From positions 62,001 through 126,000 of the forward strand of contig MEOH01000010.1 in assembly GCA_001769535.1 (NCBI GenBank): DNA of 64,000 nt. The letters run 5' to 3'. Both the position numbers and the translations under genes were made by a program. The notes under the pieces are model-generated. The model saw only the letters and a program-made list of their open reading frames with translations. It was not told the origin of the DNA and did not search any database. Shown here piece by piece: positions 2-19,277 of the stretch; positions within the stretch are counted from its first letter, which is position 1, and every line of letters starts with the position of its first letter. The DNA comes from Bacteroidetes bacterium GWF2_38_335. GTDB lineage: Bacteria; Bacteroidota; Bacteroidia; Bacteroidales; GWF2-38-335.

Positions 2-904
2 TCGGTCAGCTCAGGTTCCGGAATTATCAATACCCAGCCGGGATTCAAAATTGACTGGGGAAAATTATTGAAGATTTCATTTGTTTCTGCATTATATGCC
101 GATTCATTGGCAAAGATGTATTATTCAACAGTCGTACGTGAAAAGGAAAGTGGAATTTCCAGAATGTTGATGGATAAATACATTGCTGAAGCATATAAGC
201 CCGTTAAAGAAAAAAATGTGAATCAACTTTTTTCTTTATTGAGAAAAGCGGTTGAGGATTTTAACCAGGTTCCTGTAAATGAAGGCATTTATCCTAAAAT
301 TGGCATTGTTGGTGAAATTTTTGTGAAATATAATTCTTATGGCAATTTAAATGTTCCGGAATGGCTAATAAATCAGGGAATCGAAGTTTGTGTGCCACCT
401 TTGATGGATTTCTTTACACAGTATTTTATCAATGTGGATGCTGATATTAAAACCGGAATGAAAAAGTATTCGTTATCAGATTTGTACCTCAGGTTTATTG
501 AACTGCGCGCAGATTTATTCGTTCAGAAAGCCGAGAAAATAAACAGGGATTTCAGATATTTTACGCCGTTCCATTCTATTCGCCGTATTTCCAGGTACGC
601 TGAGCGAATTTTAAGTATAGCCAATCAGTATGGCGAGGGATGGCTGATCCCGGCCGAAATTTCTGCTTTTGCCGAAGATGGTGTGAATAATGTTGTAAGT
701 CTGCAACCCTTTGGATGCATTGCCAATCAGATAATTTCCAAGGGGGTTGAAAAACGGTTGCGTGATTTTTATCCTGAATTAAATCTGCTCTTTTTGGATT
801 TTGATGATGGTGCCAGCGAAGTCAATGTTCACAACCGGCTGTATTTTATGGTAAGAAATGTAAAGGAAAATATCAGGAATTCACAACCTGTTATTTCCAC
901 TTAA
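2..904 (+). CDS. C-terminal part of acyl-CoA dehydratase activase-related protein (5' truncated)
   Basis: The frame is open from the first bases of the window, so this is the last 300 residues of a larger protein. A TTG at 68 could act as a start but continues an already open frame, so I treat the gene as cut by the window edge. The segment matches from memory the C-terminal part of the large activators related to 2-hydroxyglutaryl-CoA dehydratase (COG3580/COG3581, DUF2229 type): a KIGIVGEIFVKYN segment, then GEGWLIPAEI, then LQPFGCIANQ and a final DDGASEVNVHNR segment. In the full-length family, N-terminal ASKHA ATPase modules precede this region and transfer an electron with ATP hydrolysis to an iron-sulfur dehydratase. 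The gene converges on and overlaps the 3' end of the SpoIIE phosphatase gene by 14 bases. Family assignment is fairly firm; the substrate is unknown. Confidence 0.8.
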   Translation, partial: SVSSGSGIINTQPGFKIDWGKLLKISFVSALYADSLAKMYYSTVVREKESGISRMLMDKYIAEAYKPVKEKNVNQLFSLLRKAVEDFNQVPVNEGIYPKIGIVGEIFVKYNSYGNLNVPEWLINQGIEVCVPPLMDFFTQYFINVDADIKTGMKKYSLSDLYLRFIELRADLFVQKAEKINRDFRYFTPFHSIRRISRYAERILSIANQYGEGWLIPAEISAFAEDGVNNVVSLQPFGCIANQIISKGVEKRLRDFYPELNLLFLDFDDGASEVNVHNRLYFMVRNVKENIRNSQPVIST

Positions 905-3383
905 TCCCTAAAATGGTAATGTCATCTGTTTGTGGTTCGTTACCAATCCATTCGATAATTTTTGAATCAAGTTTTTCCTTTTGTTCATTCATGGGTTGAC
1001 CTGAAATGTCAATCAACATTTCCTTTAGCCGTTTGTACAGGAACTTTTTATTATTTGGTCCGCCAAACTGATCAGGATAACCATCGGTGATTAAATACAG
1101 GGCATCATCATTTTGCAGGGTAATTTTATGTGTGGCATAGTTTTCCATGTGCGAGTGAATGGCAACAGGCATTTTATCGCCCTTATATTCAATTAGTTCT
1201 TTGTTTCTTATCAGATAAAGCGGGTTGTTTGCTCCGGCAAAAACGGCAGTTTTTTTATCTTCATCAATTACAATCATCGAGATATCCATACCATCCTTAA
1301 CTGCAATAGATTGGTCGGCTGAGTTGGTTTGCTCGTCTTCGACTACATTCTGTTTTAAAGTTCTGATAATTTTTTCACGTAAATGATCCAGGATTTTCCC
1401 CGGATCGGTAATCTTTTCCTGAATGAAAATCTCGTTGATGAAAGTCATTCCGAGCATGCTTACAATTGCTCCCGGAACCCCATGTCCCGTGCAGTCTGCA
1501 GCAGTAATAAGTATCTTTTTTCCTGATCTCCCAAACCAGAAAAAATCGCCCGAAACAACATCCCGTGGTCTGAATAAAATGAAAGAGTCACTGAAAATAT
1601 TATCCAGCAACATCGGGTTTGGCAACACTGAATCCTGAATGAGCTTGGCATAATCGATACTTTTTCTCAAATCTGAATACATTTCATCAAGAAGTGCCTT
1701 TTGAGTTGAAATTCGATCATTGGCGGCTTTTAGCTCAACATTTCTGATTCGCTCTATTTCTGCTTCCTTTTCGGCTTTTTCAACAGAATATCCTACCTGC
1801 TGTTTTTTTAATTTATTGAATGTTTCGTTATTGATGACTTCCTCTTTGATATTATGAAATTCTTTGAAATGATAGTAGGCATCAAAATGATTACCTGTTT
1901 CTTCAAGCGCAAGAGATAATTGGTAATGTATCTGATACTGGACCGGCTTTGTGTTGATGGTTTTTGAAATTTCAAGTGCGTTTTGGAGCAGGATCAATGC
2001 TTCTTCATATTTTTTTCCTGAAACCAGAAGTTTCCCTTTTCCCAGCAAACAAATAAGGTTGGCCTTTTGGTCATTTGTCTGAGCTGTAATCTCAATGGCT
2101 TTCTGATAGTAACTGATGGCTTTATCGAATTCACCGGATTCTTCGCTCATGCTGGCCATTCCAATATAAGACCATGCCAGAGCGCCTTTGTGACCAAGTT
2201 CGGTCCTGATTTCAATACTTTTATTGTAGTTTTCTTTTCCCTTTTCAAATTCTTTTTTTAATGTAAAGGCCCTTCCGATCTGGTTATAGGATGCAGCCAT
2301 ACCGGGTTTATCATCATTTTTTATGCGGATATTAAGGCATTTTTCAAAATATTGCAGTGATTCATCCAGATCTGATATACGCATGAATAGAAAACCGGCC
2401 TGACTGTAATAATCGCTCAGAAGGGTTTCATCATAATGTTTGCCTTCAATCAGTTTTAAACCAGTAATTACACAGTTGATCCCTTCGTGGTATAATCCGT
2501 ACATGTCAAAATAACCCGCTTTTACCAAAAGGGTTTTGATAATACCTCCCGTATCGGATGTTTGTCTGAAATAACGATGAATGGTGGATAACAATTCAAG
2601 GTTACTTTCATCATCTTTTGCCTGAATAAGCTCAATAGCCTTACAGTAAAGCAATGCAAAATTTTTACCCCTCAGGTATTGGATGTTTTCAGATTCATCG
2701 GCAAGTTTTAACGCCCTTTCATATGATAAACCAGATTGTATGTATCTGTTTTTCCAGATATCATCAAGGATTGACTCACTTTCACGAATCTTTTCAGCTT
2801 TTTCATTGGTTAAAAAAACATCAGCAATAGCGTGATGCGACCAGTAATCATCAGATTCGGCATAATCTGAAGCCGATTGAAATTCTTTTAATGGAATGGC
2901 AGGAGCATATTCACCGGGAAAAATGGTAACAATTTCATGACCGTTTTCTGCATTTTTTAAAATCACATGAAAAGTATCGGTGATTTTAAACTTGGGTGAA
3001 TTTATTTTTTTTACCGGCTCTCTTACAGCTATTGCAAGTTCTTCATCGGAACCGGTTATGTCAATGATGTTGTCAATGCCTAATCCCGGAGTAAAATCGG
3101 GAAAGGAAAAAGAGTAAACATGGGGTCCGTATTTGTTGGAGAAATTTCCTGCCGAAATATTTTCTTTTATCAGAATAAACAGCTTTTCGGGTGAGGAGCA
3201 GAAATAGTGGAAAAATTTTGATCCCGGATTTTTCATTGCAGAAAAAATGGCTTCTTTATCAAACCCCTTCGAGATCAAATACACAAGATAATCATTATCA
3301 ATACTGTAAAAATGTTTCAAAATATGAAACTGTCTTTCAATACTGAATGAAATAGTATTGTTTTCCTTGTTCTGGTTTTCCAT
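891..3383 (-). CDS. TPR-repeat protein with C-terminal SpoIIE/PP2C-type serine phosphatase domain
   Basis: 830 residues. The start is the ATG at 3383 (MENQNKEN), 4 bases after the stop of the WG-repeat gene; an upstream ATG at 3563 lies inside that gene and gives implausible sequence. Layout: an N-terminal region of about 170 residues I do not recognise; TPR-like helical repeats at about 280-510; a coiled coil at about 520-574 rich in Lys, Glu and Arg; then a SpoIIE-type PP2C phosphatase domain from about 575 to the end. The phosphatase shows SGDFFWFG, AADCTGHGVPGA (metal Asp near 630), LITDGYPDQFGG (Asp near 767) and the final TDDITILG (about 820), so the metal-binding acidic residues appear intact. 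No signal peptide or membrane helix is visible, so it should be cytoplasmic. It is the last gene of the STAND-STAND-WG operon and is a candidate output enzyme that removes phosphate from Ser/Thr of a partner such as an anti-anti-sigma protein (inference). Confidence 0.85.
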   Translation of the reverse strand: MENQNKENNTISFSIERQFHILKHFYSIDNDYLVYLISKGFDKEAIFSAMKNPGSKFFHYFCSSPEKLFILIKENISAGNFSNKYGPHVYSFSFPDFTPGLGIDNIIDITGSDEELAIAVREPVKKINSPKFKITDTFHVILKNAENGHEIVTIFPGEYAPAIPLKEFQSASDYAESDDYWSHHAIADVFLTNEKAEKIRESESILDDIWKNRYIQSGLSYERALKLADESENIQYLRGKNFALLYCKAIELIQAKDDESNLELLSTIHRYFRQTSDTGGIIKTLLVKAGYFDMYGLYHEGINCVITGLKLIEGKHYDETLLSDYYSQAGFLFMRISDLDESLQYFEKCLNIRIKNDDKPGMAASYNQIGRAFTLKKEFEKGKENYNKSIEIRTELGHKGALAWSYIGMASMSEESGEFDKAISYYQKAIEITAQTNDQKANLICLLGKGKLLVSGKKYEEALILLQNALEISKTINTKPVQYQIHYQLSLALEETGNHFDAYYHFKEFHNIKEEVINNETFNKLKKQQVGYSVEKAEKEAEIERIRNVELKAANDRISTQKALLDEMYSDLRKSIDYAKLIQDSVLPNPMLLDNIFSDSFILFRPRDVVSGDFFWFGRSGKKILITAADCTGHGVPGAIVSMLGMTFINEIFIQEKITDPGKILDHLREKIIRTLKQNVVEDEQTNSADQSIAVKDGMDISMIVIDEDKKTAVFAGANNPLYLIRNKELIEYKGDKMPVAIHSHMENYATHKITLQNDDALYLITDGYPDQFGGPNNKKFLYKRLKEMLIDISGQPMNEQKEKLDSKIIEWIGNEPQTDDITILGIKWK

Positions 3384-3387
3384 TTTA

Positions 3388-6300
3388 CTACTCTTTACTT
3401 GTTTTTTGCCCAAGTTTGTTGATGTAGAATTCCTGATTGTCCATCTTAACCAGAGCTTTTCCATTGACAAAGTTTTGGGCATAATCAAACTGGATGGGAA
3501 TAACCTCTTCGCCAAGAATATTGATATAGCCGTATTTTCCTTCCCATGAAAATGAAGTTTCATTGTATTTTCCGATAAACACTAAAGCCATGCCTTCCGA
3601 AAAATCAAATACCTGATCATATTTTATAGGGATGACTAAATTACCATCTTTATCAATGAAACCATATTTTCCGATATATGGATCACCTTCCTGCAATTCT
3701 CCATTGAAAGCCATAGCAAATCCATCTTTAAAATCACCTGTATAATCAACCATGATTTTTGGATATATTTCTTTTCCTTCTTTATCGATATACCCGAATT
3801 TTCCTGTTACCGGATTCCCTGAATAATTAAGTTCTCCTTTGAAAAACCTTGCGTAACCTTCATGAAAATCATAAACAACGTTGTAATCGGGTCTGCATTT
3901 AATCACCTCTTTTCCCGTATGGTCAACAAATACAAATCTGTTCGAGCTGGTGTTAGCGCCGGTATTGCTTAATTCTCCTAACATCGCTCTGGCCATTCCA
4001 TCTGAAAAATCATACACGTTAGTGTAATTTCTTTCGCATGGAATCACCTCCTTACCCGCTTTGTCTATAATACCATATTTTCCCTCACTTGTGTAACCGT
4101 ATGTGTCAATAGTTCCCTTGAATACCCATGCGTATTCCTCTGAAAAATTGCGCACAAGGTCGTAATCAAGAATACATGGAATGACTTCTTTGCCTGTTGT
4201 GTCAATAAATCCTGTGAGATTGAATTTTTTTATCTGAGCCAGGCCATTTGTAAAATATTCAATAGATGAATAAATACAAGGAGCAATCACTATCCCGCTT
4301 GTTGTAAGAAGTCCGAATTTACCGTCCTGCTGTACCAGTGATATTCCATTATGAAAATATTCATTTATTTCACTGTAAATACAAGGAGTAACTTCTTTAC
4401 CTGCTTTATTGATAATTCCATATTTTTCATCTTTTTGAACCTTTGCGAAACCATTTTTAAAAATCTCTACCAGGGTGTAATCCAGATTGCAGGGGATAAC
4501 TTCATTGCCGAGGGTATCAATAAATCCCCAAAGCAATTTTTCTTCCTTGTCACCTTGCGATTTCTCAATAATATTGACAGGAGCCATCCCTTCATAAAAG
4601 TAGCCAATGGAATTGTATTTGGAATCTAATGGTATAATTTCTTTTCCATTTTTATCTACATAGCCATATTTGCCTTCTTCGAAGTAACCTGTTTCACTCA
4701 TTTTTCCCATAAAAACACGAGCCATATTATGCTCGTTGAAAGTTTCAACATAATCGTATTTGCATGGAATAACTTCTTTTCCTTTAAGTGAAACCAGTCC
4801 GTATTTTCCTGTTTTAGGACTTCCGTAAGTATCTGTTTCACCAATAAATGCCTGTGCGATATCATCATAAAAATAGCCAATGTAATTATATTTACATGGG
4901 ATAATTTCTTTTCCGCTTTTATCAATATATCCAAATTTACCTCCTTTGTAATATCCGTACTCATCAAAAGATCCGTTGTAAACTTTGGCATATCCATCCA
5001 TAAAATCCTCAACTTTTGAATATTTTAACTTGCATGGAATCACTTCTTTTCCGTTTTTATCAATAAAACCTGTTTTTCCCTCACCCAAAGACCCGTCATC
5101 ATTGACTTTTCCGGTGAAAACCCGTGCCAGCCCTTCATTAAAATCAAATACATAATTGTATTTAAGGTTGCAGGGTATCAACTCTTTGCCTTCTATATCG
5201 ATAAAGCCATATTTTCCTCGTCTGGGGGTATTGTTTTTTGCATCACCATAAAAAACACGTGCCATATCATTTGAAAGAGTTCCTATATAATCATATTTGG
5301 GTTCGATTAAAACTTTTCCCTGGGTTGTGATTAATCCATTTTTTCCCTTGTCAGGTGTCCCCGATTCGTTTAGATCTCCCTTAAAGGAAATATAAATTCC
5401 GGTTGTGAAATAGCTGAGATTATCGTATTCACATTTGATAACTTCTTTTCCGGTTTTGTCGATATACCCGTATTTTCCCTTTAACGGAGTTCCGTAATCA
5501 TTCAGGCTTCCATTAAAAACACTCGCTATTCCTCCAACAAAATCAAATGCATAATCATATTTGCAAGGGATGATTTCCTTGCCTTCATCTGTTATAAATC
5601 CATATTTTCCATTTGATGGAGATCCGTATTCATCTGTCTGGCCAATGAATACCTTGTATGCTTTTTCATTGGGATATCCAATATTAACGTATTTACATGG
5701 GATAACTTCTTTACCGGTTGAATCTATATATCCGTAAAGTCCTTTTAGCGGTACTCCATATTCAGATAATTCTCCCTTGAAAACCATAGCGCGGCCTCCA
5801 TAAAAATCATAGGCGTAATCGTAAATGGCCTGAGTTAGTAATTCTCCCCTGAAATTTAAATATCCGTATTTTCCGATTAATGGTGATCCGTAATCACTCA
5901 ATGTGCCCTCAAAATAATTAATTATTCCTGAACCGGGAGCAGATAAATATTGATATTCACATAATATCACCTCAGTTCCTGTTGTATCAATATACCCGTA
6001 TTTCCCGGAAAGGGGAGATCCATACACGTCTGTTTGGCCGATGAATACTTTTGCCAATCCATCTGTAAATACATCAATATAATTGTATTTACATGGTGTT
6101 ACTTCAATTCCTCTTATATCAATTAACCCGTAAAAGCCTTTAATCTTATTTCCAAGGTCGTCAATTGTTCCTTTGAAAACTTTGGCGAATCCGTTTGAAA
6201 AATCCTCTGCATAGTCATATTTTCTTGTTAAATCCAATACAACTTTACCCTTTTCATTAATATATAAGTAGTTTCCTTTAACCGGATTGCCATAAACCAT

Positions 6301-8400
6301 CACACCGGTAAATGCACGTGCCAGATTTTCTGAAAATTCCCAGAAATAGTCATATTTGAAGGGAACAACCAAGGAACCTGTTGAGTCAATGAAAGACCAT
6401 TTATTATTATGCATTACCCTTGCAATTTCACCTGAAAAATCTGAAACATCATCGTATGGAAGCGAACAGGGAATTACTTCATTTCCCTGTTTGTCTACAA
6501 ATCCCCACAAGGATCCTTTTTTTACCCTTTTCTTGTCCGAAAAGAATGAGGTGCCAGTAAAATCATAATAACCAGCCTGTTTCTGCTCACTGACATCTTC
6601 GTTTTGTTGCCTGCACAGAATGGTCTCGCTTAATTTTGTTTCATCTGTAAACAGTTTTCTGTATTGTTCAGGTAATTCATTGGCACTGTAATATTTGCAT
6701 GGCACGATAATATTGCCGGTTGTATCAATACATCCCCAGAGGTTTTGCTTTTTAACCGCCGCCACATTCATATTGAAATCTGAAATAAAATCAAAAGTGA
6801 AAGGTATTACTGCAATTCCCTTTTTGTCCATGAAACTGTATTTAAAACCTTTTCGGATCACCGAGTGGCCACAACTGAAATTTCCCACATAATCGCAGTG
6901 ATCAATTACACAAGGGATGGCTTCGTTGCCCGTTTTATCTAAAAATCCTGTTTTGTTGAACTTGACTACTTTAACCATTCCATTGTAATAATGATCAATG
7001 AAATCGTATTCAAGTTCACACGGTATGATTTCGTTGTAGGTGGAATCAATAAAACCTGTTTTTCCATTCCTTACAACTTTAATCATATTATCAGAATATT
7101 GAGTGATTTCATCATAAATACAAGGAATGATTTCTTTTCCGGTTTTATCTATAAACCCATATTTTCCCTGAATAGGAGAATAATATGAGGTGTCAACTGT
7201 GCCTCGGAATACTTTGGCCATATCATCCTGAAAATTCCATAGAATATCATAATCCAGTTCGCATGGAATGACTTCATGTCCTTTGCGATCAATAAAACCA
7301 TACACTCCTTTTGCAGGCTGTGCAAATTGATTGGTAATTCCTTTGAATACAAGTGACATGCTGTCTGAAAAATTTCCTACATAATCATACTCTAAAGCAC
7401 AAGGAATGACTTCTGTGCCTGTTTTATCAATAAACCCGTAAACACCTTGGCCAATATAGTTTTTTTTAAGGGTGCCTTTGTAAACTATTGCCAATCCTTC
7501 AGAAAAACCACCCATTACATCATACTTCAGTTTACATGGAACCACCTCTTTTCCTGATCTGTCGTAGTACCCTGCTTTTTCGATTTTTAAAGCATCTGCT
7601 CCCCATTCTCCAATATAAACAGGCACAATATTGTCATAGAATTCACCTACTGCAGTGTATATAACCGGTACAATAATCTTTCCTGTTGAGTCAATTATTC
7701 CATATTTGTTATCTGATGAAATTTCTGAGGTTTTACCCAAAAATGCTTTAGACATGCCTTTATTCATTTCATATAAATAGTCATATTTGAAGGGTACAAC
7801 TTCTTTTCCTGTTTTGTCAATAAAACCGTACTTGTCTTTTAGTTTGCATAAGGCCAGACCGCAACTGAACGAAGATACATCTTCGTATTTTAACTCACAG
7901 GGTACTATTTCCTTTCCGGTACGATCGATTATACCAAATTTTTGATTTTTCTCTACCACAGCTACTCCCTCCTTAAAAGGTTTGGCATTATCATATATCA
8001 AAGGTACAATTTGCTCGCCCAGCAAATTGATAAAACCATAGTAGCCTCCCGAATAATTGCTTGATGAATAGGTGTAAACTAAAGAAAGACCTTCAGAAAA
8101 TTCTCCAATTGATGTGTATATACAGGGAACAATTTCTTTGCCATATTTATCAACCAATCCATATTTTGTTGTATAATCATTTAAATCAAAAATACTAACA
8201 CTGATCAATCCATTATTAAAGTATTCATCTACAAAATCATATTTAAATGGGGTAACCTCCATTCCTGTTTCAGTTATGAAACAAAAATTGGAACCGTTGC
8301 TTTTCTTCAATAGTTCTAGTTGCGAAAAAGATGGTACTGTTTTAATTATTGCCAGAAATAATATGGCAATAAAGATTTTATATTTTAGGTTTTTAATCAT
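3388..8400 (-). CDS. Giant exported WG-repeat protein
   Basis: 1670 residues. It begins with a Sec signal peptide (basic MIKNLKYK, a hydrophobic core, cleavage near FSQ at 26-27). The rest is about 38 WG-type repeats with the core K-Y-G-[FY]-I-D-x-x-G-K-E-[VI]-I-P-C, spaced about 35-55 residues apart. Longer units carry an insert of the type DxYGSPxxGKYG. WG repeats are predicted beta units that form extended solenoids or propellers; no enzyme activity is known for them. About 25 repeats end in Cys after the Ile-Pro or similar pair, which is many Cys residues for an exported protein. No T9SS C-terminal domain is visible, so periplasm or outer-membrane association is more likely than T9SS secretion. 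The gene sits 27 bases after the WD40-STAND gene and 4 bases before the phosphatase gene. Its partner or ligand is unknown. Confidence 0.88.
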   Translation of the reverse strand: MIKNLKYKIFIAILFLAIIKTVPSFSQLELLKKSNGSNFCFITETGMEVTPFKYDFVDEYFNNGLISVSIFDLNDYTTKYGLVDKYGKEIVPCIYTSIGEFSEGLSLVYTYSSSNYSGGYYGFINLLGEQIVPLIYDNAKPFKEGVAVVEKNQKFGIIDRTGKEIVPCELKYEDVSSFSCGLALCKLKDKYGFIDKTGKEVVPFKYDYLYEMNKGMSKAFLGKTSEISSDNKYGIIDSTGKIIVPVIYTAVGEFYDNIVPVYIGEWGADALKIEKAGYYDRSGKEVVPCKLKYDVMGGFSEGLAIVYKGTLKKNYIGQGVYGFIDKTGTEVIPCALEYDYVGNFSDSMSLVFKGITNQFAQPAKGVYGFIDRKGHEVIPCELDYDILWNFQDDMAKVFRGTVDTSYYSPIQGKYGFIDKTGKEIIPCIYDEITQYSDNMIKVVRNGKTGFIDSTYNEIIPCELEYDFIDHYYNGMVKVVKFNKTGFLDKTGNEAIPCVIDHCDYVGNFSCGHSVIRKGFKYSFMDKKGIAVIPFTFDFISDFNMNVAAVKKQNLWGCIDTTGNIIVPCKYYSANELPEQYRKLFTDETKLSETILCRQQNEDVSEQKQAGYYDFTGTSFFSDKKRVKKGSLWGFVDKQGNEVIPCSLPYDDVSDFSGEIARVMHNNKWSFIDSTGSLVVPFKYDYFWEFSENLARAFTGVMVYGNPVKGNYLYINEKGKVVLDLTRKYDYAEDFSNGFAKVFKGTIDDLGNKIKGFYGLIDIRGIEVTPCKYNYIDVFTDGLAKVFIGQTDVYGSPLSGKYGYIDTTGTEVILCEYQYLSAPGSGIINYFEGTLSDYGSPLIGKYGYLNFRGELLTQAIYDYAYDFYGGRAMVFKGELSEYGVPLKGLYGYIDSTGKEVIPCKYVNIGYPNEKAYKVFIGQTDEYGSPSNGKYGFITDEGKEIIPCKYDYAFDFVGGIASVFNGSLNDYGTPLKGKYGYIDKTGKEVIKCEYDNLSYFTTGIYISFKGDLNESGTPDKGKNGLITTQGKVLIEPKYDYIGTLSNDMARVFYGDAKNNTPRRGKYGFIDIEGKELIPCNLKYNYVFDFNEGLARVFTGKVNDDGSLGEGKTGFIDKNGKEVIPCKLKYSKVEDFMDGYAKVYNGSFDEYGYYKGGKFGYIDKSGKEIIPCKYNYIGYFYDDIAQAFIGETDTYGSPKTGKYGLVSLKGKEVIPCKYDYVETFNEHNMARVFMGKMSETGYFEEGKYGYVDKNGKEIIPLDSKYNSIGYFYEGMAPVNIIEKSQGDKEEKLLWGFIDTLGNEVIPCNLDYTLVEIFKNGFAKVQKDEKYGIINKAGKEVTPCIYSEINEYFHNGISLVQQDGKFGLLTTSGIVIAPCIYSSIEYFTNGLAQIKKFNLTGFIDTTGKEVIPCILDYDLVRNFSEEYAWVFKGTIDTYGYTSEGKYGIIDKAGKEVIPCERNYTNVYDFSDGMARAMLGELSNTGANTSSNRFVFVDHTGKEVIKCRPDYNVVYDFHEGYARFFKGELNYSGNPVTGKFGYIDKEGKEIYPKIMVDYTGDFKDGFAMAFNGELQEGDPYIGKYGFIDKDGNLVIPIKYDQVFDFSEGMALVFIGKYNETSFSWEGKYGYINILGEEVIPIQFDYAQNFVNGKALVKMDNQEFYINKLGQKTSKE

Positions 8401-8427
8401 AAGCTCCTGGCTAATAAACAGCAGTGG

Positions 8428-11124
8428 TTACAAATTTATACTGAATTTATTTTTTTCCGATGTGTTCAGGTCATCATATTTGCCTGAAGCCCTGAATTGA
8501 AGATAACCTTCTTTCTTCCACGATTTCCCGGATGTGTTGATCCGGTCAAGGTCACTTTCTCCAAGATGCCAGCTTCGAATGGTCTTATCCTTCGAACCGG
8601 TGATGATGCTTTTTTTATCGGGCGAAAAACCAATAAAAGAAACAGCTCCAAGGTGACCTTTCATTTCATATATCAGTTCTTCCTTTTGACTCCAAATACA
8701 AATACTGCCTGTATTGGTGCCTGTTATGATGAATTTTCCATCATTGGTGGTGGTTACAAAGGTTACGGGTGAATTGTGTTTAAATACATTTAACTTTCTG
8801 CCCGAAAGATCCCATAAAACGGCTGTTTGATCATCCGAAGCACTTAGAATCTGCTTGCCGTTTGGATGAAAATTCAGACAATTGATTTTGCCTGAATGAT
8901 TGATTACCTTCACAAAACCTGTCGGTGTTTGATCCCACAAATATCCGGCATTACCCTGACAAACAACCAGAAACTCGCCATTTTGTGAAATTCTTGAATC
9001 GGTCACCGTGCTTGTAGTCTTCGCCTGAACTGGCTTTGCACTTTTTAAACCTGTAAGATATACAGTCCCATTCTTTCCTCCAATTAACATCATGTCTGAC
9101 TTTTCACTGTATTCAATGGATACCGGTTCAAAATTTAATTTTAAGGTATTGATCAATTCTCCTGATTGATTCCAGGTCTTCACAGACATATCTGATAAGG
9201 CGGCAACAATATAACTGTCAGTTATTTTCATGCTGTTAATTGTTGCTCCGTCAGAGGAGATATCTTTAATTTTTACTCCTGCTGATGAAAAAACTTTTAT
9301 GGAATTGTCTGTGCCTGCGCAAAATATTTTTGATCCGTCAGAATTAATGGCTGCAAAACCGGATGAGCCTGTATTTTGATTTAAAGTCTGATAAAACACA
9401 TGCCTTGCATATATGCTGTCTCTGATTTCAAGAGAATAGGAATTTGTCGGGTCAATCATCAGTGCATATTCTGCCAGTCTCAAGGCTTTTGTCGGATTGC
9501 TATTTATATAATCCTTGGCCATATTGGTAAGAAAAAGGGCTTTGGTTTTTTTCTCCTGCGACAACGCTCTTACTTCATTGACCTTTGATTGCTTATAAGC
9601 CGATTCCACTTCTTTTTTCTGGCTTTCCAACTGTACGTTTGATGTTTCAAGTTCTGCCTTGGCATTATCAGCCTCCTTTTTGGCCTCAATGGCTTTTTGT
9701 TTTTCCCGGTTGGCCAATTTTTCATTTTCAAGAGCAATCTTTTCTTTTTCCATTGCTTTGGATCTTTCGTTGAGGGCCCAGATTGAAAATCCGCTAAAAA
9801 TTGCCAGCAACAGTGCCATCAGTATTATCAGCCAAATACGACGCCTGCGTTTTGCTTTTTCGGCTTCTCTTTTACTCTTGAAAATAAATTCATTCAGTTG
9901 CTCATTGAGAAAAATCTTGCCTTCATAAGGGGCAATATAGGAAAGGTCATTTTTGTTTAGTAAAATCTTCCTTCTCAGGAAATTGTCGTAGGCATTTTCA
10001 ATGAACTGCCTGACTTCCAAAAGCTCTTTTTCAACAAGAGTGATTTTTTCATAAATTTTTGACGCAAGTGCATCATGCCGCAATTCATAATGGCCGCTTT
10101 CATCCTTATCCCTGAGAATGCGTAAATTAATGAACCGCTGAATCAAATCGCGCAGGGTTTCTATGCTCAGGTTTTTGCCTAAAGTACGGCTGTAATCCAG
10201 AACTTCTTCCTCGGTAATCTGTCTTTTTGTGCCTTTAGTCGAGACAAAAGCCTTTAATGCCACAAGGGCTGTGTCGGGGTCGGGTAGAAGTACAATCTGC
10301 TCTTCAAGAAAACTACCGAGTAAGTCCTTAACCTCGCCGGTTTTTTTCAATTGGGCTAAGGTGAATTTTGGTGACTGTCCGGGGTTCTCGCTTTTTGCAA
10401 CTTTAAAAAGTTTATCCAGAAATACCTGCAGGTAGGTGAGTTCCACATCAACACCTTCCGGCGATAACCTTTCTAGCAACTGATCCGAAAAGCCCGGCTC
10501 AATGTCAATGCCTGCAAAACGACACGGTCCCTCAATGGCATGCTGGGCATTGCTCCGAGTCATTTTTTCAATCCTGATGCGGTTTGCCAGAAATGTGGGT
10601 ATCTGTTTTTCAAATTCTGTGATGCCTGCCAGATATTCTTCCCTGATAACAAACAAAAACCTGCATTGTAAGTCGCTTTCGGCCACTTCTTTAATGGCTT
10701 TTATAAATTCCTCTTTTTCGGTTTTGCTCCCGAAAATAAACAACTCTTCAAATTGGTCAAAAATCAGGTAAACAGGCTTGAAATGGTCAAGGTAAAGTGA
10801 TCGGATTCCCTTCTTCAACCACCCGTCTTTTGCGGTGTTAAGGGTAAACGGGGTAATGGCTGCGGCAGAAAGTGAGCGGGCCAGACTTTCAGTCATGTTG
10901 CCTCCCCTGCGGATGTTTACCGGCAGCCAGTCCGACTCCGAAAATTTGCTGGCCAAACCGCAATATATGAGGGATGATTTCCCCGTTCCTGAAATTCCGT
11001 AAACCAACAGAATCTTGCTTTCGAAAATCTTTTGGTATAGTTCTTCTATCTCACGGTCACGCCCAAAGAAAATCTCTTTGTCTTCTTTTGTATAACTGTC
11101 GAGGAACTTGAAGGGTGATGTCAT
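8428..11124 (-). CDS. Membrane STAND NTPase (nSTAND1-like) with WD40 repeats
   Basis: 898 residues. Order of parts: STAND P-loop NTPase at about 1-370 with Walker A GISGTGKSS at 43-51 and Walker B-like LIFDQFEELF around 120-129 (Asp123, Glu126/127); a helical region; one transmembrane helix at about 430-451 preceded by KAKRRRR; a coiled coil at about 452-525 rich in Lys, Glu and Ala; then WD40-like beta repeats from about 580 to the C-terminus, with several repeats ending in W-D or W-S. The positive-inside rule puts the NTPase in the cytoplasm and the WD40 domain in the periplasm. STAND NTPases act as signal-gated switches that oligomerise on sensing a ligand. The NTPase half is strongly similar to the gene just upstream (same MTSPFKFLDSYTKEDKEIFF start). 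The start is the ATG 16 bases after that gene's stop. Sensor ligand unknown. Confidence 0.88.
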   Translation of the reverse strand: MTSPFKFLDSYTKEDKEIFFGRDREIEELYQKIFESKILLVYGISGTGKSSLIYCGLASKFSESDWLPVNIRRGGNMTESLARSLSAAAITPFTLNTAKDGWLKKGIRSLYLDHFKPVYLIFDQFEELFIFGSKTEKEEFIKAIKEVAESDLQCRFLFVIREEYLAGITEFEKQIPTFLANRIRIEKMTRSNAQHAIEGPCRFAGIDIEPGFSDQLLERLSPEGVDVELTYLQVFLDKLFKVAKSENPGQSPKFTLAQLKKTGEVKDLLGSFLEEQIVLLPDPDTALVALKAFVSTKGTKRQITEEEVLDYSRTLGKNLSIETLRDLIQRFINLRILRDKDESGHYELRHDALASKIYEKITLVEKELLEVRQFIENAYDNFLRRKILLNKNDLSYIAPYEGKIFLNEQLNEFIFKSKREAEKAKRRRRIWLIILMALLLAIFSGFSIWALNERSKAMEKEKIALENEKLANREKQKAIEAKKEADNAKAELETSNVQLESQKKEVESAYKQSKVNEVRALSQEKKTKALFLTNMAKDYINSNPTKALRLAEYALMIDPTNSYSLEIRDSIYARHVFYQTLNQNTGSSGFAAINSDGSKIFCAGTDNSIKVFSSAGVKIKDISSDGATINSMKITDSYIVAALSDMSVKTWNQSGELINTLKLNFEPVSIEYSEKSDMMLIGGKNGTVYLTGLKSAKPVQAKTTSTVTDSRISQNGEFLVVCQGNAGYLWDQTPTGFVKVINHSGKINCLNFHPNGKQILSASDDQTAVLWDLSGRKLNVFKHNSPVTFVTTTNDGKFIITGTNTGSICIWSQKEELIYEMKGHLGAVSFIGFSPDKKSIITGSKDKTIRSWHLGESDLDRINTSGKSWKKEGYLQFRASGKYDDLNTSEKNKFSINL

Positions 11125-11140
11125 ATAATAACTTTATATT

Positions 11141-13216
11141 TTAATCAATACTGAAAATGATTCCGTTTAGATATCGTTCCTTGCCATCTGGAGCCATTGC
11201 TTTTATATCTGAAATAAAAATATCCTGACCTTTTTTAAGCTGTTTAATGGCTTTAATCTGACTTTCATTAAAAGTTGAACTTTTAGATTCAATACAGGTA
11301 AATAGTCCGTTAACTTCAATCATTAAGACGAATCCTGTTACTGAATATTTTAAATCAAATACAGAATTTTTTATTTCAGCAATTATTCCTGTATTATTAA
11401 GCAATTCTTTTTTTGATATTTTCCCGCCTTTTTTTTCACATAAAAACGGTTCCGGATCAGGAATTCGATAAACACGAAAACCCATTCTCCCAATAGGCGT
11501 AAAAGCAGTATCTTCAGGGCGATATCTAATGGATACATTTATATAACACAACTGATTTTCTTGCTGAGGGAAGATAATATATTCGGTATTATTTGATCCT
11601 TTTTTCAGTTTGCCGCCGGTTGTAGAAACGTAAACATCTTCAGCGCTGAATCCCGGTACTGCCACTGTTATCGGATTATCGATGCCTAAATATAAAACAT
11701 TCATTTTTGTAGCAGAAATAACTGCCGAAGGCGGGCCTTTTTTCACTAATCTTAAGCTGTCAGCCTCCTTTTTAGCAACATCCGCTTCATTAATAGCTTT
11801 TAATGCTTTTTCCTTTTCTATAAGTGCAGTTTTTTCATTCTCTTTTGCTTTAGTTCTTTCATTCAATGCCCAAAATGTAAACCCCGATAAAACAACAAAT
11901 AATAAAATAGCCGCAGATACTGCAAAGGTTCTTTTTCTACGTTTTATTTTACTAAGCATCCTGCGGCTGTCATTAATAAAGCTGATAAGTTGCTCACTTA
12001 GAAACATTTTATCTTCATACGGAGCAAAATAACTGAGGTCTTTGGTTGATAGATAAATTTTTCTTCGCTGGTAATTATCAAAAGAATTTTCAATAAACTG
12101 TCTGACTTCAAGAAGTTCTTTTTCAACCAGACTGATTTTCTCATAAATTTTGAGAGCAAGAGCATCATGCCTTAATTCAAACCGGCCACTTTCGTCTTTG
12201 TCTCTTAAAATCCTTAAAGATACAAAATGCTGAATGAGTTCACGCAGACGTTCTGCTGATAAGTCTTTACCTAAGGTCCGGCAAAATTCAAAAACCTCAC
12301 TTTCTGTAATTTGTCTTTTTGTTCCTTTTGTTGAGACAAATGCTTTTAGTACGGCCAGACCAATATCAGGATCGGAGAGTTCTGAAATCTGATCATCAAG
12401 AAATGAACCCAATAAATCTTTTACATCACCTGTTTTATCCAATATAGCATGAGTGAATTGTAAATTATTTCCGGTTTTTTCGTGTGAAACAAGTTTATAA
12501 ATTTTATCAAGATAAACTTGCAAATATGTAAGTTCAATTTCATTGCTGTCGGGCGAAAGTTTATTCAGTAACTGATCAGAAAATCCTTCTTCAAGTTCAA
12601 TTCCTGAAAATTTACAGGGTCCCTCGACAGCCATTTTTGCATTTAGCCGTGACATTTTTTCAATTCTTACCCTGTTTGCCAGAATAGAGGGTATGGTTTT
12701 TTCAAATTCAGTAATTCCGGCCAGATATTCTTCCCTGATAACAAAAACAAACCGGCATTGCAAATCGCTGTCAATTACATCCTTGATTAGTTTGACGAAT
12801 GCTTCTTTTTCAGATTTGCTTCCAAAAATAAAGAGTTCTTCAAATTGATCAAAAATTAGAAAAACTGGCTTAAAATGATCAAGATATAATGAATGCAATG
12901 CTTTTTTTAGCCAACCTTCTTTTGAAGAATTTATCTTTAAGGTGGTGAGAGATAGAGCAGAAATTGATCTTTCAATGCTCTCGGTAATGTTTCCGCCCCG
13001 CCTTATATTTACAGGCAGCCAGTCGCTTTCTGAAAACTTCCCTGACAGTCCGCAATTAATAAGAGATGACTTTCCGGTACCCGAAACGCCATAAACCAAT
13101 AATGTTTTATTTTCAAAAACCTTATGGTATAATTCCTCAATTTCCTTATCGCGCCCAAAGAAAATCTCCTTGTCTTCTTTTGTGTAACTGTCGAGAAATT
13201 TAAAAGGCGATGTCAT
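11141..13216 (-). CDS. Membrane STAND NTPase fused to a GldM/PorM-like C-terminal domain
   Basis: 691 residues from the ATG at 13216, chosen because it aligns with the start of the paralogue (MTSPFKFLDS); a TTG at 13237 would add seven residues. The N-terminal NTPase has Walker A GVSGTGKSS at 43-51 and a LIFDQFEELF Walker B. A basic stretch (KIKRRKR) and one transmembrane helix follow at about 430-450, then a short coiled coil. From about 494 the sequence leaves the paralogue and resembles the last two periplasmic domains of GldM/PorM: SATKMNVLYLGIDNPITV at the start, then FRVYRIPDPEPF, GGKISKKELL, then DIKAMAPDGKERYLN at the end. GldM/PorM is the proton-driven motor protein of gliding and T9SS, whose periplasmic domains reach the GldK/GldN ring. 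Carrying these domains on a STAND switch is very unusual. This is the first gene of the operon. Confidence 0.87.
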   Translation of the reverse strand: MTSPFKFLDSYTKEDKEIFFGRDKEIEELYHKVFENKTLLVYGVSGTGKSSLINCGLSGKFSESDWLPVNIRRGGNITESIERSISALSLTTLKINSSKEGWLKKALHSLYLDHFKPVFLIFDQFEELFIFGSKSEKEAFVKLIKDVIDSDLQCRFVFVIREEYLAGITEFEKTIPSILANRVRIEKMSRLNAKMAVEGPCKFSGIELEEGFSDQLLNKLSPDSNEIELTYLQVYLDKIYKLVSHEKTGNNLQFTHAILDKTGDVKDLLGSFLDDQISELSDPDIGLAVLKAFVSTKGTKRQITESEVFEFCRTLGKDLSAERLRELIQHFVSLRILRDKDESGRFELRHDALALKIYEKISLVEKELLEVRQFIENSFDNYQRRKIYLSTKDLSYFAPYEDKMFLSEQLISFINDSRRMLSKIKRRKRTFAVSAAILLFVVLSGFTFWALNERTKAKENEKTALIEKEKALKAINEADVAKKEADSLRLVKKGPPSAVISATKMNVLYLGIDNPITVAVPGFSAEDVYVSTTGGKLKKGSNNTEYIIFPQQENQLCYINVSIRYRPEDTAFTPIGRMGFRVYRIPDPEPFLCEKKGGKISKKELLNNTGIIAEIKNSVFDLKYSVTGFVLMIEVNGLFTCIESKSSTFNESQIKAIKQLKKGQDIFISDIKAMAPDGKERYLNGIIFSID

Positions 13217-13497: not shown

Positions 13498-14295
13498 ATG
13501 CAAAATATTATAAATAAAGTAACAAGAAAAAGGAGAATAGTTTTTTTATTGTTGGTATTAATTATTTATAGTAGTTGCTCTGATTTAAATAATGAAAAAA
13601 CTATTGAAAATCCAAAAAAAGCTATTGACGATAATATAGCAGATATAAATCACCAAATGTCATCTGATGAGAGAGTTTTTGTAAGCAGGGAAGATTCAGT
13701 TGGAAATAGAATGGAAGGGGATTTGATTAATAGCAAAAAACATGGTGTGTGGAAGTTTTATTCTGTTAAAAATATACTTGACTCTGTCAATTTTTATCGG
13801 GGTGATACAGTTTATTTAAAACTTGATAAAGATGATTATAATTGTGAGTTTATTTCAATAAAGAATAAATACAAAGTGTCGGTTCCAAAAAAATGGAAAA
13901 TTGAAAACAGTGAAAATGAAAATGTTTTGTTATCATTATTTAAAAATTGTAATGATAGTTTTAAACCTGTTATAACAATAACATATGAAAAAAACAATTT
14001 TAAATCATTTAAGGAATATATTGAAAATTCAATATATTCACTTCAGAATAAGCCATATTTTAAAGAATTATTACAATCAAATTTGACTAAAATAAATAAA
14101 AATCAAGCTGCCTATGTTTCTTTCGAAATTATTGTGAATGAAGAAATAGCTGGTGTACTTGCAATTTTTATTGATATTAACAATGAAATATTTGTTTTTA
14201 CAGGGACAGCCTTTAATGAACCAAAAGGTGAGTTTCTAAGATATAAAGTGGTGTTTGAAAAAATTGCGGAATCTTTTTCCCCATTGGAAGATTAA
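13498..14295 (+). CDS. Lipoprotein with a MORN-like motif and PsbP/DcrB-like domain
   Basis: 265 residues from the ATG at 13498. An ATG at 13447 in the same frame would put a long non-signal stretch before the lipoprotein signal, so I prefer the later one. The lipobox is IIYSSC with the lipidated Cys at 27, so it is predicted to sit in the inner or outer membrane, facing the periplasm. Residues about 60-75 read GNRMEGDLINSKKHGVWKFY, a MORN-variant (YwqK-like) unit. The rest, from KYKVSVPKKWKIE to the C-terminal FEKIAESFSPLE, has the pattern of PsbP/DcrB-like alpha-beta proteins, a fold of unclear role in these bacteria. The gene is strikingly AT-rich and diverges from the STAND operon. Function unknown; fold assignment tentative. 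Confidence 0.65.
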   Translation: MQNIINKVTRKRRIVFLLLVLIIYSSCSDLNNEKTIENPKKAIDDNIADINHQMSSDERVFVSREDSVGNRMEGDLINSKKHGVWKFYSVKNILDSVNFYRGDTVYLKLDKDDYNCEFISIKNKYKVSVPKKWKIENSENENVLLSLFKNCNDSFKPVITITYEKNNFKSFKEYIENSIYSLQNKPYFKELLQSNLTKINKNQAAYVSFEIIVNEEIAGVLAIFIDINNEIFVFTGTAFNEPKGEFLRYKVVFEKIAESFSPLED

Positions 14296-14335
14296 CCTTG
14301 AAGATATGTTTTATATTAATCGTAATTCTCAAGTC

Positions 14336-14692
14336 ATGAAACATATAGTATTTATGTTATCTGCATTTTTTTTTATATTCACAAATGCCCAATCCACCCT
14401 CTTCATTAGACACTACACCTCCCCCCAAACCTCCTATTCCCTGGAAGATTTAAGTAAAATCAATTTTTCCGGTTCAGAAATGAATGTCGAAAAAACCGGG
14501 GGAGAAATATGTGTTTCACCTCCAATTAAAGACTCAATAAAAATTTTTTCCCCTTCTGAAGGAGAACGCTATCATGTATATATAACCACAGATTCAATAA
14601 TCTCTTTTAAAAGTAAAGGTCTAACAGATTCAACTGTAAGGTATTATATCCATATTATAGACGGGAAAACAACTGTAACAGAAGTTAAATAA
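14336..14692 (+). CDS. Small secreted protein, chimeric copy of the module in the 16.0 kb gene
   Basis: 118 residues from the ATG at 14336, chosen because it gives a signal peptide (MKHIVFMLSAFFFIFTNAQ); an in-frame ATG at 14255 lies within the previous gene. Mature residues to about 60 match the gene at 16020, including FSGSEMNVEKTGGE, and the DNA is identical over 36 bases (14464-14499 versus 16148-16183). After that the two diverge: this copy lacks the T9SS sorting domain and instead ends in a short predicted beta region (SIKIFSPSEGERYHVYITTD and onward). It looks like the product of recombination or partial duplication. The N-terminal segment resembles the one preceding many FISUMP or T9SS proteins. 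Function unknown. Confidence 0.6.
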   Translation: MKHIVFMLSAFFFIFTNAQSTLFIRHYTSPQTSYSLEDLSKINFSGSEMNVEKTGGEICVSPPIKDSIKIFSPSEGERYHVYITTDSIISFKSKGLTDSTVRYYIHIIDGKTTVTEVK

Positions 14693-15862: not shown

Positions 15863-16019
15863 TTTTTATAAAAATTTAATTATTATTTTAAATAAAACCC
15901 AATTTCAGACAATAATACTGAGTAAGTTAAAACGACAAGTCTGAGGGGTGGAGTTTGTCATAAAATAATTTTTGGAATTGAAATATTTATATAGTATTTT
16001 TAAAACTTATTTATATGTC

Positions 16020-16508
16020 ATGAAAACTCTGTTATTTATTTTTGCGATTTCTTTTGTTTGTATAGTAGAGGCTCAATCCAGCCTATTCGTAAGACAATAC
16101 AGTTTTCCTCAAACAGCATATTTTCTGGAAGATGTAAGCAAAATCAGTTTTTCCGGTTCAGAAATGAATGTCGAAAAAACCGGTGGAGAAGTGGATGTGT
16201 ATAACCTGTCGGATATCCGTTACCTGAATTTTGAAAACCTGGCTACAGAAAATGAGGCCCGGGAGGAAATTGAAAGTACAGATGTCAGGTGCTACCCCAA
16301 TCCGGTCAAAGAAACCCTGAATTTTGAATTTGCAGATCAGGAAAACCATAAAATTGAAATAATTGATTTTCAGGGAAAGTTGGTTTATGTGGTTGAAATG
16401 AACGGAGAAAATGCAAAAGTAAATTTCTCAGGTTTTCCGAAAGGACTGTATCTCTGCCGTATTTCGAACGGAAACAACACAGTAACAAAAAAAGTCATTA
16501 AAAATTAA
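16020..16508 (+). CDS. Small secreted protein with T9SS type A sorting domain
   Basis: 162 residues from the ATG at 16020, which begins a good signal peptide (MKTLLFIFAISFVCIVEAQ); an upstream TTG at 15972 is disfavoured. A short N-terminal module (LFVRQYSFPQTAYFLED, then ISFSGSEMNVEKTGGEVDV and DIRYLNF) is followed by a C-terminal T9SS type A sorting domain of about 75 residues (CYPNPVKETLNFEF, then IIDFQGKLVY, GLYLCRIS and a final KKVIKN). The sorting domain directs export through the Por system and anchoring or release at the cell surface. It contains little besides the module and the sorting signal, so it may be a minimal surface adaptor. It is followed 13 bases later by the FISUMP gene. 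Confidence 0.75.
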   Translation: MKTLLFIFAISFVCIVEAQSSLFVRQYSFPQTAYFLEDVSKISFSGSEMNVEKTGGEVDVYNLSDIRYLNFENLATENEAREEIESTDVRCYPNPVKETLNFEFADQENHKIEIIDFQGKLVYVVEMNGENAKVNFSGFPKGLYLCRISNGNNTVTKKVIKN

Positions 16509-17670: not shown

Positions 17671-17678
17671 TAATTTTG
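17671..17678 (+). promoter_or_regulatory. -7 element for the ORF6N gene
   Basis: TAATTTTG fits TAnnTTTG. It lies 18 bases before the ATG at 17696 and overlaps the alternative GTG at 17678, which supports the later ATG as the start. Confidence 0.45.
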
Positions 17679-17695
17679 TGGATAAATATTATTTT

Positions 17696-18241
17696 ATGAA
17701 AGAGGATAAGATGATTTTACGAGAAGCTATAATAGCAAGTAAAATCATTACTATTAGAGATGAAAAGGTAATACTTGATGTTCATTTGGCTGAACTATAT
17801 GAAGTTGAAACAAGGGTTTTAAAACAAGCTGTGCGTAGGAACAAAGATCGGTTTCCATACGATTTCATGTATGAACTTACTGATGCTGAAATAGATGAAA
17901 TGGTATCACAAAATGTGATACCTTCTAAAAGACATTTTGGCGGTGCTGTTCCTTTTGCTTTTACAGAAAATGGTGTTGCTATGCTTTCAAGTGTCCTTAA
18001 TAGTAAAAAAGCAATTGAAGTTAATATTTCAATAATGCGAACTTTTACAATTTTAAGAAAAATGATTTTGCTAAATAAAGATATCATGGAGGAAATAAAT
18101 AAAATCAGAAAGCAAATGCAGGAACAGGGCCATAACATCATGCTGATTTTTCAGTACCTCAAGCAATTTGAAGAAAGCAAACAGCAAAAAACAGAACAAG
18201 AAAATCGGAAAAGAATAGGATTTAAAACAGACCCTAACTAA
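17696..18241 (+). CDS. ORF6N domain DNA-binding protein
   Basis: 181 residues from the ATG at 17696; a GTG at 17678 overlaps the predicted promoter, and an ATG at 17711 is also possible. Residues about 10-95 form an ORF6N (KilA-N-associated) domain: ILDVHLAELYEVETRVLKQAVRRN, then RFPYDFMYELT, then FTENGVAMLSSVLNS. The C-terminal third is a coiled-coil-like helical tail rich in Lys, Gln and Glu. ORF6N proteins come from phage and plasmid gene pools (phage antirepressor relatives) and are common as solitary genes in Bacteroidota genomes. Molecular role is unclear; DNA binding is assumed from the family. It converges on the next gene with an 8-base overlap of the 3' ends. Confidence 0.85.
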   Translation: MKEDKMILREAIIASKIITIRDEKVILDVHLAELYEVETRVLKQAVRRNKDRFPYDFMYELTDAEIDEMVSQNVIPSKRHFGGAVPFAFTENGVAMLSSVLNSKKAIEVNISIMRTFTILRKMILLNKDIMEEINKIRKQMQEQGHNIMLIFQYLKQFEESKQQKTEQENRKRIGFKTDPN

Positions 18242-19277
18242 CCTCAACCCCGGTCAATGTCTTCATCATATCCTTAAACTCCGCCAACAAAATCTGATAG
18301 TTGCTCAGCGTTCTTAAATCACATTTTTCGGTTACCTCTGTTCCTACATACATCAGCAGGTCTGATCGGAACTTAGTGTAAAGAAAAATATCCTTTTTTA
18401 TATCAAACTTTTCCTTGTTGTCAAGGATTTCTGAGTTTGTATCTATAATAAGTGGTGATAAATTCAGATAATCTTCAATAGATTTGATGTTTTTCATTAA
18501 AAGCACTGAGCGGCTCTCTGCATAATTTGGCTCATTTAGTTCCTGTGCCTTAAAATCTGAATCGGAACTGTTCAACAGGTCTATCACATGATGAAACATG
18601 GCTTGCTGATTTTTTGGCTTGATAACCTTTATTTCACGCACCGAAACCAACTTGTATTTTGCGAAAAATGAAATTCGTTGTAATATGAAAGTGAGCTTTT
18701 CTTCATATTCAACACACCTTTTTTCAATTTCTTCCTGTGTCAGATTGATCTGGTAATGACCTATCTCATTTCTTTCAGGGACCCAGAAATCAAGTGCATT
18801 ATAAAAGTTTTTATCGAAATTTTCCTTGATCTCCGGTATAAACCATTCTGTGTTTTTTTCATTGAAAATATTGCCGATGGCTCTGATCATCCAGGTGAAA
18901 TTGCCCATGCTCAATACCAAAAACCTTCCTGAAAAATCTTTGGCGAAGGACTCCGGAATCTCAATGTTCCCCTTCACTTTTTCCTTCCAAAGCTGCGATA
19001 ACATTACAAAACTGGTGAACTGCATGGTTCTTTCAATGGTCTTGAAAATCTGGTCTAATCGCATACGGTCAAGCTGCCGCATTGAAGCAGAAAAAAGTCT
19101 CCTCAGTTCAACCCCAATGGGCCAGGGGTAATTTTTGATGATCAAATCGCCCAAAACCCTGTAATCTGCAACTTCATCGTCCTCATCATCTGCTATCAGA
19201 TGCTTTTGTAATGCCGGCCTGTGTTTCACCATTTCGTCAAACACCTTCCTGATCATATCTTCGTTTATTACAGCCAT
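18234..19277 (-). CDS. Unknown protein with an R-x4-H (HEPN-like) motif
   Basis: 347 residues, no signal peptide or membrane helix, so cytoplasmic. It is acidic near the N-terminus (ADDEDDEVADYR at 29-40) and mostly helical by appearance. Residues 169-174 read RNEIGH, an R-N-x3-H pattern that fits the R[N/D]x4H signature of HEPN ribonucleases, placed after helix-like segments (MGNFTWMIRAIGNIF at 124-138). I do not recognise the family with confidence and the motif alone is not proof. HEPN proteins are typical toxin or abortive-infection RNases and also partners of STAND NTPases, and a STAND operon lies 5 kb away. Its dense, even sequence suggests a conserved protein rather than a spurious frame. 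Confidence 0.7.
   Translation of the reverse strand: MAVINEDMIRKVFDEMVKHRPALQKHLIADDEDDEVADYRVLGDLIIKNYPWPIGVELRRLFSASMRQLDRMRLDQIFKTIERTMQFTSFVMLSQLWKEKVKGNIEIPESFAKDFSGRFLVLSMGNFTWMIRAIGNIFNEKNTEWFIPEIKENFDKNFYNALDFWVPERNEIGHYQINLTQEEIEKRCVEYEEKLTFILQRISFFAKYKLVSVREIKVIKPKNQQAMFHHVIDLLNSSDSDFKAQELNEPNYAESRSVLLMKNIKSIEDYLNLSPLIIDTNSEILDNKEKFDIKKDIFLYTKFRSDLLMYVGTEVTEKCDLRTLSNYQILLAEFKDMMKTLTGVEVS

Follow-up and report, generated by a model that had tools for sequence, protein, structure and literature searches.

Four genes read in one direction in the genome of Bacteroidetes bacterium GWF2_38_335 form part of a wider and apparently undescribed pattern in which membrane STANDs are encoded within trans-envelope operons. 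We lean towards the view that this cluster, found in a 64,000-nucleotide stretch of DNA (the whole of which is called the window), encodes a membrane STAND switch that couples periplasmic sensing to cytosolic effectors. This view draws on the positive-inside topology of the STAND proteins, their partnership with an undescribed family (FAMA) and the fusions of that family, the clustering of SpoIIE genes with STANDs, the co-location of an undescribed domain (NT4), the operons of a second STAND family and the presence of GldL-like neighbours. The domains, gene order, spacing, predicted topology and conserved neighbourhoods described here are sequence-based results. No paper on a STAND-SpoIIE, STAND-GldM or STAND-TonB system was found in the literature searched, whose coverage left most subscription papers outside. 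The features of the cluster and its surroundings are as follows.

11141 to 13216, minus strand: P0001, 691 amino acids; nSTAND1 NTPase, transmembrane (TM) helix at about 433-452, coiled coil, GldM D3-D4 (497-687; predicted periplasmic)
8428 to 11124, minus strand: P0002, 898 amino acids; nSTAND1 NTPase, TM helix at about 430-448, coiled coil, WD40 propeller (predicted periplasmic)
3388 to 8400, minus strand: P0003, 1670 amino acids; signal peptide (SFS/Q cleavage) and 38 WG repeats; exported
891 to 3383, minus strand: P0004, 830 amino acids; NT4 (1-200), TPR and SpoIIE-type PP2C phosphatase; no TM segment
2780 to 3383, minus strand: NT4 domain of P0004, about 200 amino acids, undescribed
18234 to 19277, minus strand: FAMA, 347 amino acids, undescribed family; no signal peptide or TM segment
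13447 to 18241, plus strand: opposite-strand gene block between FAMA and the STAND genes, with small exported proteins and one ORF6N-like gene

An earlier reading of the sequence alone had described four genes in the same direction with gaps of 16, 27 and 4 bases, and both this arrangement (minus strand, 891-13216) and the domain layouts assigned to the four proteins are borne out, by the coordinates and by Pfam matches respectively. For P0004, a first-ATG open reading frame caller places the start at 3563; the start 4 bases past the WG stop codon fits the spacing and is preferred. P0004 also shares 14 bases with the convergent gene at 2-904. Two further parts, FAMA and the NT4 domain of P0004, had escaped the earlier reading. 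The four-gene cluster is not due to chance.

P0001 and P0002 match nSTAND1 with E values of 1.2e-41 and 1.4e-42 (144 and 147 bits against a cut-off of 27.1), and both carry a Walker A motif, G(V/I)SGTGKS, and a Walker B motif, LIFDQFEE. The two proteins share 67% identity over residues 1-506; beyond this point the similarity stops abruptly and each has a sensor of its own, indicating that a module consisting of the NTPase, TM segment and coiled coil was duplicated and its sensor swapped. In P0002 the sensor is matched by Pfam as WD40. In P0001 it is matched as GldM_3rd (3.3e-17) and GldM_4th (3.8e-18), and the C-terminus matches domains D3-D4 of the solved Porphyromonas gingivalis PorM (6ey5) with an E value of 1.5e-20. 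A GldM of the GldLM motor has its own N-terminal TM segment, domains D1-D4 and an adjacent GldL, whereas P0001 has D3-D4 only. Moreover, the fused GldM domains cluster apart from the true GldM of the source genome in a small tree (support 0.89). Small GldM_4th proteins of about 210-220 amino acids are also encoded in this genome (G000; C4:117537-118501, C5:10734-11701 and C19:109707-110039), in pairs on C4 and C5, and are separate from a 542-amino-acid GldM-like gene on C27.

A strong TM segment follows the NTPase in both proteins, and the 15 residues ahead of it include 8-9 basic ones; basic residues before the membrane helices had been noted in the earlier reading. This architecture is shared by relatives: a strong hydrophobic helix follows the NTPase in 75 of 82 related STANDs, and 72 of these 75 have more positive charge on the N-terminal side of the helix (mean net +5.5 versus +0.9). 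Among STANDs of the second family the helix and the positive-inside charge are present in 41 of 41. Since the ATPase is expected to be cytosolic, prediction places the C-terminal sensors in the periplasm. Domains D3-D4 are natively periplasmic in GldM, which agrees with this placement. The claim that the GldM and WD40 sensor domains face the periplasm is therefore supported by prediction.

The FAMA gene lies 5.0 kb upstream of the STAND genes on the same strand and is the sole copy in the 5.27-Mb source genome. Its product is up to 73% identical to those of genes directly beside related STANDs, and among 65 related loci whose sequence extends far enough, 53 have FAMA at most 1.5 kb from the STAND gene on the same strand, nearly always upstream. 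The window holds the components of a FAMA-STAND operon, namely a FAMA gene and STANDs with a positive-inside TM segment after the NTPase, with FAMA 5 kb upstream rather than adjacent. Judging from gene order in relatives, the intervening plus-strand block is probably a later insertion. Two small exported proteins of this block (window positions 14255-14692 and 15972-16508) have in common the stretch LED(L/V)SKI(N/S)FSGSEMNVEKTGGE, and the second ends in a tail resembling a YPNP-type sorting domain. An ORF6N-like DNA-binding gene, recognized by eye, lies at the end of the block next to FAMA (17678-18241).

FAMA stands alone in Bacteroidales-like loci. Elsewhere it is joined to an N-terminal CHAT protease domain (KSB1, Aminicenantes, alphaproteobacterial and some other loci), to a DUF4062/TIR-like domain (Algoriphagus) or to an AraC HTH (L099, with proteins of the same length class in L103 and L108). 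We infer that FAMA may serve as an output adaptor, a cytosolic module that stays constant while its effectors vary. Pfam does not recognize the family (tested on a relative from locus L060). Its AlphaFold model is good (pLDDT 88), and a comparison of the model with the PDB gave no significant match to a solved fold; weak structural matches to an OB-like part and a HEPN-like part fall under the noise bar.

The fusions to CHAT and TIR-like domains also conform to the pattern of a constant module with variable effectors seen in conflict systems (PMC7159879, PMC8195603). The cluster could accordingly be an intracellular conflict or cell-death system, in which the STANDs recognize an invader, the effectors are FAMA and NT4, SpoIIE has a tuning role and the anchoring to the envelope is incidental. 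An RNxxxH motif present in 27 of 37 FAMA proteins, together with the HEPN-like match to 7bxo_G (Z 6.5, rmsd 3.7, 117 aligned residues, under the noise bar), would suit such a role, although the motif is situated within a loop of the model and is missing from distant members. We consider this explanation unlikely, however, because the sensors are predicted to be periplasmic, outer-membrane partners are kept adjacent in relatives, and a PADLOC search gave only weak or repeat-driven matches and no described system.

Neighbourhoods were compared among 78 STAND loci from public genomes, a set that was assembled by similarity and lacks phylogenetic independence. A SpoIIE gene is near the STAND in 11 of 53 Bacteroidota-like loci, and ten of these genes are within 2.6 kb. 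The SpoIIE density of the source genome predicts 2.2 within 4 kb (P 9e-5), and the near flank of the STAND differs from the far flank (P 0.0095); these P values are indicative because of the similarity-based, non-independent selection of loci. A GldL-like multi-pass protein is encoded beside 13 of the 53 STANDs (Pfam GldL_N 3.9e-14 in one). Of 61 relatives, 12 encode, downstream of the STAND, an exported protein that combines TPRs with an outer-membrane barrel. No such barrel was found near the STANDs within the window, and its presence in only 12 of 61 relatives indicates that it is not a strict requirement of FAMA-STAND operons.

P0004 is matched by Pfam as TPR and SpoIIE (1.3e-22) and lacks a TM segment, consistent with the soluble TPR-SpoIIE phosphatase that had been described. 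Its metal-binding motifs are intact (D..GD at 608, D..GHG at 630 and TDDITI at 819). The source genome encodes about 41 SpoIIE genes (43 matches, some of them split), and one SpoIIE neighbour is therefore weak evidence when taken alone. The N-terminal NT4 domain (residues 1-200) has no Pfam match. A search for NT4 only, conducted on 393 genomes of the order, matched 11. Other NT4-bearing genomes mostly encode it as a gene of its own, of about 200 codons, adjoining TPR-SpoIIE, TM2 or both, and P0004 is thus a fusion of neighbours. TM2 is a two-TM protein of about 435 amino acids encoded elsewhere between SpoIIE and NT4, and it gave no match in the source genome in a search run without a positive control. 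A SpoIIE-TM2 fusion of 1043 amino acids is present at L061:4246-7377 and L158:5115-8246, apparently the same contig, while TM2 is separate elsewhere. The possibility that NT4 is a toxin or RNase was considered on the basis of conserved His/Lys and TxFPG motifs, and we make no such claim. The structure model is poor (pLDDT 60), and a Foldseek search with it returned nothing usable.

STAND and NT4 are found on one contig in the source genome and in G027, G303 and G343. The contig edge in G156 truncates a STAND-like TM-GldM protein, whose remaining C-terminal portion (37% identical to P0001 over 418-690) is encoded 75 bases before TPR-SpoIIE, TM2 and NT4. In G047 (L170:7488-9193) a probable STAND-derived TM segment followed by GldM D1-D4 occupies two overlapping frames near TPR-SpoIIE. 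The combination of a STAND-like GldM fusion with SpoIIE and NT4 thus recurs in G156 and probably in G047, both recovered by the NT4-only search. This recurrence, along with the clustering of STAND and SpoIIE genes above expectation, makes it unlikely that the cluster joins a FAMA-STAND system and an unrelated WG-SpoIIE pair which are adjacent and co-transcribed by chance. Such an origin would fit the restriction of the WG gene to the present locus, the abundance of SpoIIE genes in the source genome and the situation in G001, a genome of the same genus, where NT4-SpoIIE is located at a contig end and no close STAND of the P0001/P0002 family is present.

P0003 proved to be the very large exported WG-repeat protein that had been predicted, with 38 WG repeats recognized by Pfam and a signal peptide ending at SFS/Q. 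This cleavage site is in line with the signal-peptide Q-rule of Bacteroidetes (PMC5837995). No WG gene lies beside a related STAND in any of the 78 loci (0/78), and the exact four-gene set is therefore local. WG was accordingly rejected as a conserved STAND partner, being a partner at the present locus only, and the proposals that the four families form a unit and that the WG domains act as a sensor lose their support. Among the other WG genes of the source genome that were read, none is beside a STAND or SpoIIE gene. The position of the WG gene corresponds to that of the barrel in relatives, and P0003 perhaps supplies a signal to a STAND sensor.

A third good STAND of the source genome (L051; G000:C13:34000-50000) belongs to the second family. 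Its operon encodes a HEAT-repeat membrane protein, a HAMP-SpoIIE protein, a TIR-like protein, a STAND-TM-WD40 protein, a TPR-barrel and a propeller-like lipoprotein. In 40 of the 41 second-family loci read, the STAND is accompanied by the barrel or by a TonB-receptor-type protein of about 870 amino acids; the latter replaces the barrel in 13 of 41 loci and is a TonB-dependent receptor by Pfam (one tested). An N-terminal exported TPR-like domain is common to both. Upstream are a TIR-like gene (22 loci), HAMP-SpoIIE (20 of 41 loci, or 20 of the 28 without the ~870-amino-acid protein) and the HEAT-repeat membrane protein, and the propeller-like lipoprotein is downstream in 27 of the 41. About half of these operons, including those with the ~870-amino-acid receptor, have no adjacent SpoIIE gene. 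The operon is tight, with median gaps of 1-17 bases, and is kept across the order. Second-family STANDs occur in 76 of 393 genomes, mostly as single copies, and one copy per genome in a stable operon resembles a housekeeping sensor more than a defence system, which further argues against a role in conflict.

The two families together support a recurrent association of membrane STANDs with SpoIIE. For the sequence-only reading, which had proposed trans-envelope signalling, the search for shared neighbourhoods thus had a mixed outcome: WG genes are found apart, whereas STAND and SpoIIE genes are together above expectation. Those parts of the proposal that concern periplasmic sensors (at the level of prediction) and the association of STANDs with SpoIIE and with exported or outer-membrane proteins are retained, whereas the exact gene set, the WG sensor and partner switching are not. 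Regarding the last of these, the cluster encodes no STAS antagonist or RsbW-like kinase of the kind that a partner-switching module contains. Moreover, the source genome has one STAS protein and one short HATPase_c_2 (RsbW-like) protein for its many SpoIIE genes, and the phosphatases likely have substrates other than partner-switching proteins.

In the membrane switch that we favour, two paralogous STAND ATPases would be cytosolic, each with one pass through the inner membrane and with a different sensor displayed in the periplasm (GldM D3-D4 or WD40). An exported protein would feed a signal to the sensor, perhaps the WG protein here and the barrel or TonB receptor with its periplasmic TPR-like domain in relatives. 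Sensing would free the STAND ATPase to oligomerise, and FAMA and the NT4-TPR-SpoIIE protein would be the cytosolic output partners, the latter acting by dephosphorylation of proteins. Here we infer physical contact, the direction of the signal, oligomerisation and the role of the phosphatase as output.

The GldM domain of P0001 could sense which state the type IX secretion motor or its ring is in. As a special case of the membrane switch, the STAND-GldM protein might join or mimic the GldLM motor and report through SpoIIE, a possibility raised by D3-D4 of P0001, the probable STAND-derived TM segment preceding GldM D1-D4 in G047 and the GldL-like neighbours of related STANDs. The binding of PorL by PorX (PMC5005315) is a precedent for a link of this kind, an attractive possibility. 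We judge a dedicated type IX regulator to be rather unlikely, because most relatives have WD40 instead of GldM, no GldL-like gene was seen in the cluster and GldM D4 is also present in small separate proteins of the source genome. As a broader and tentative proposal, with a real though lesser chance of being correct than the membrane switch itself, Bacteroidota may possess a trans-envelope class in which a barrel or TonB receptor, via its periplasmic TPR-like domain, controls a membrane STAND whose WD40 or GldM sensor gates SpoIIE and TIR-like, CHAT or DNA-binding adaptors. In the window's variant of this class, an exported WG protein would be combined with a GldM sensor that may read the type IX motor.

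If these proposals are true, a periplasm-sensing STAND would constitute an envelope signalling route in addition to two-component systems and TonB/anti-sigma relays, part of the large SpoIIE complement of Bacteroidota would gain a role, and GldM fusions would connect STANDs to the motor of type IX secretion. STAND switches are familiar as sentinels inside the cell. The nSTAND1/STAND NTPases of conflict systems with variable-effector partners (Kaur et al., PMC8195603, PMC7159879) resemble those described here in NTPase family, WD40 sensor and such partners. However, the proteins of the present set and its relatives have a single TM segment after the NTPase, a sensor predicted to be outside the cytosol, outer-membrane or exported partners, a SpoIIE neighbour and a GldM sensor. 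Although P0001 shares D3-D4 with GldM/PorM of the type IX motor, these domains are fused behind a STAND NTPase and TM segment, and D1-D2 are absent. P0004 has the SpoIIE-type PP2C domain and metal-binding motifs of the RsbU/SpoIIE partner-switching phosphatases and of SiaA, its best NCBIfam similarity (far below the SiaA cut-off), but differs in its accessory TPR and NT4 regions and in belonging to a cluster without a STAS protein or anti-sigma kinase. In FecA-FecR surface signalling, a TonB-receptor/anti-sigma system, an outer-membrane receptor with an N-terminal periplasmic domain is encoded beside an inner-membrane relay. The second STAND family shares this arrangement, although its relay is a STAND ATPase rather than an anti-sigma factor and the window itself carries no such receptor.
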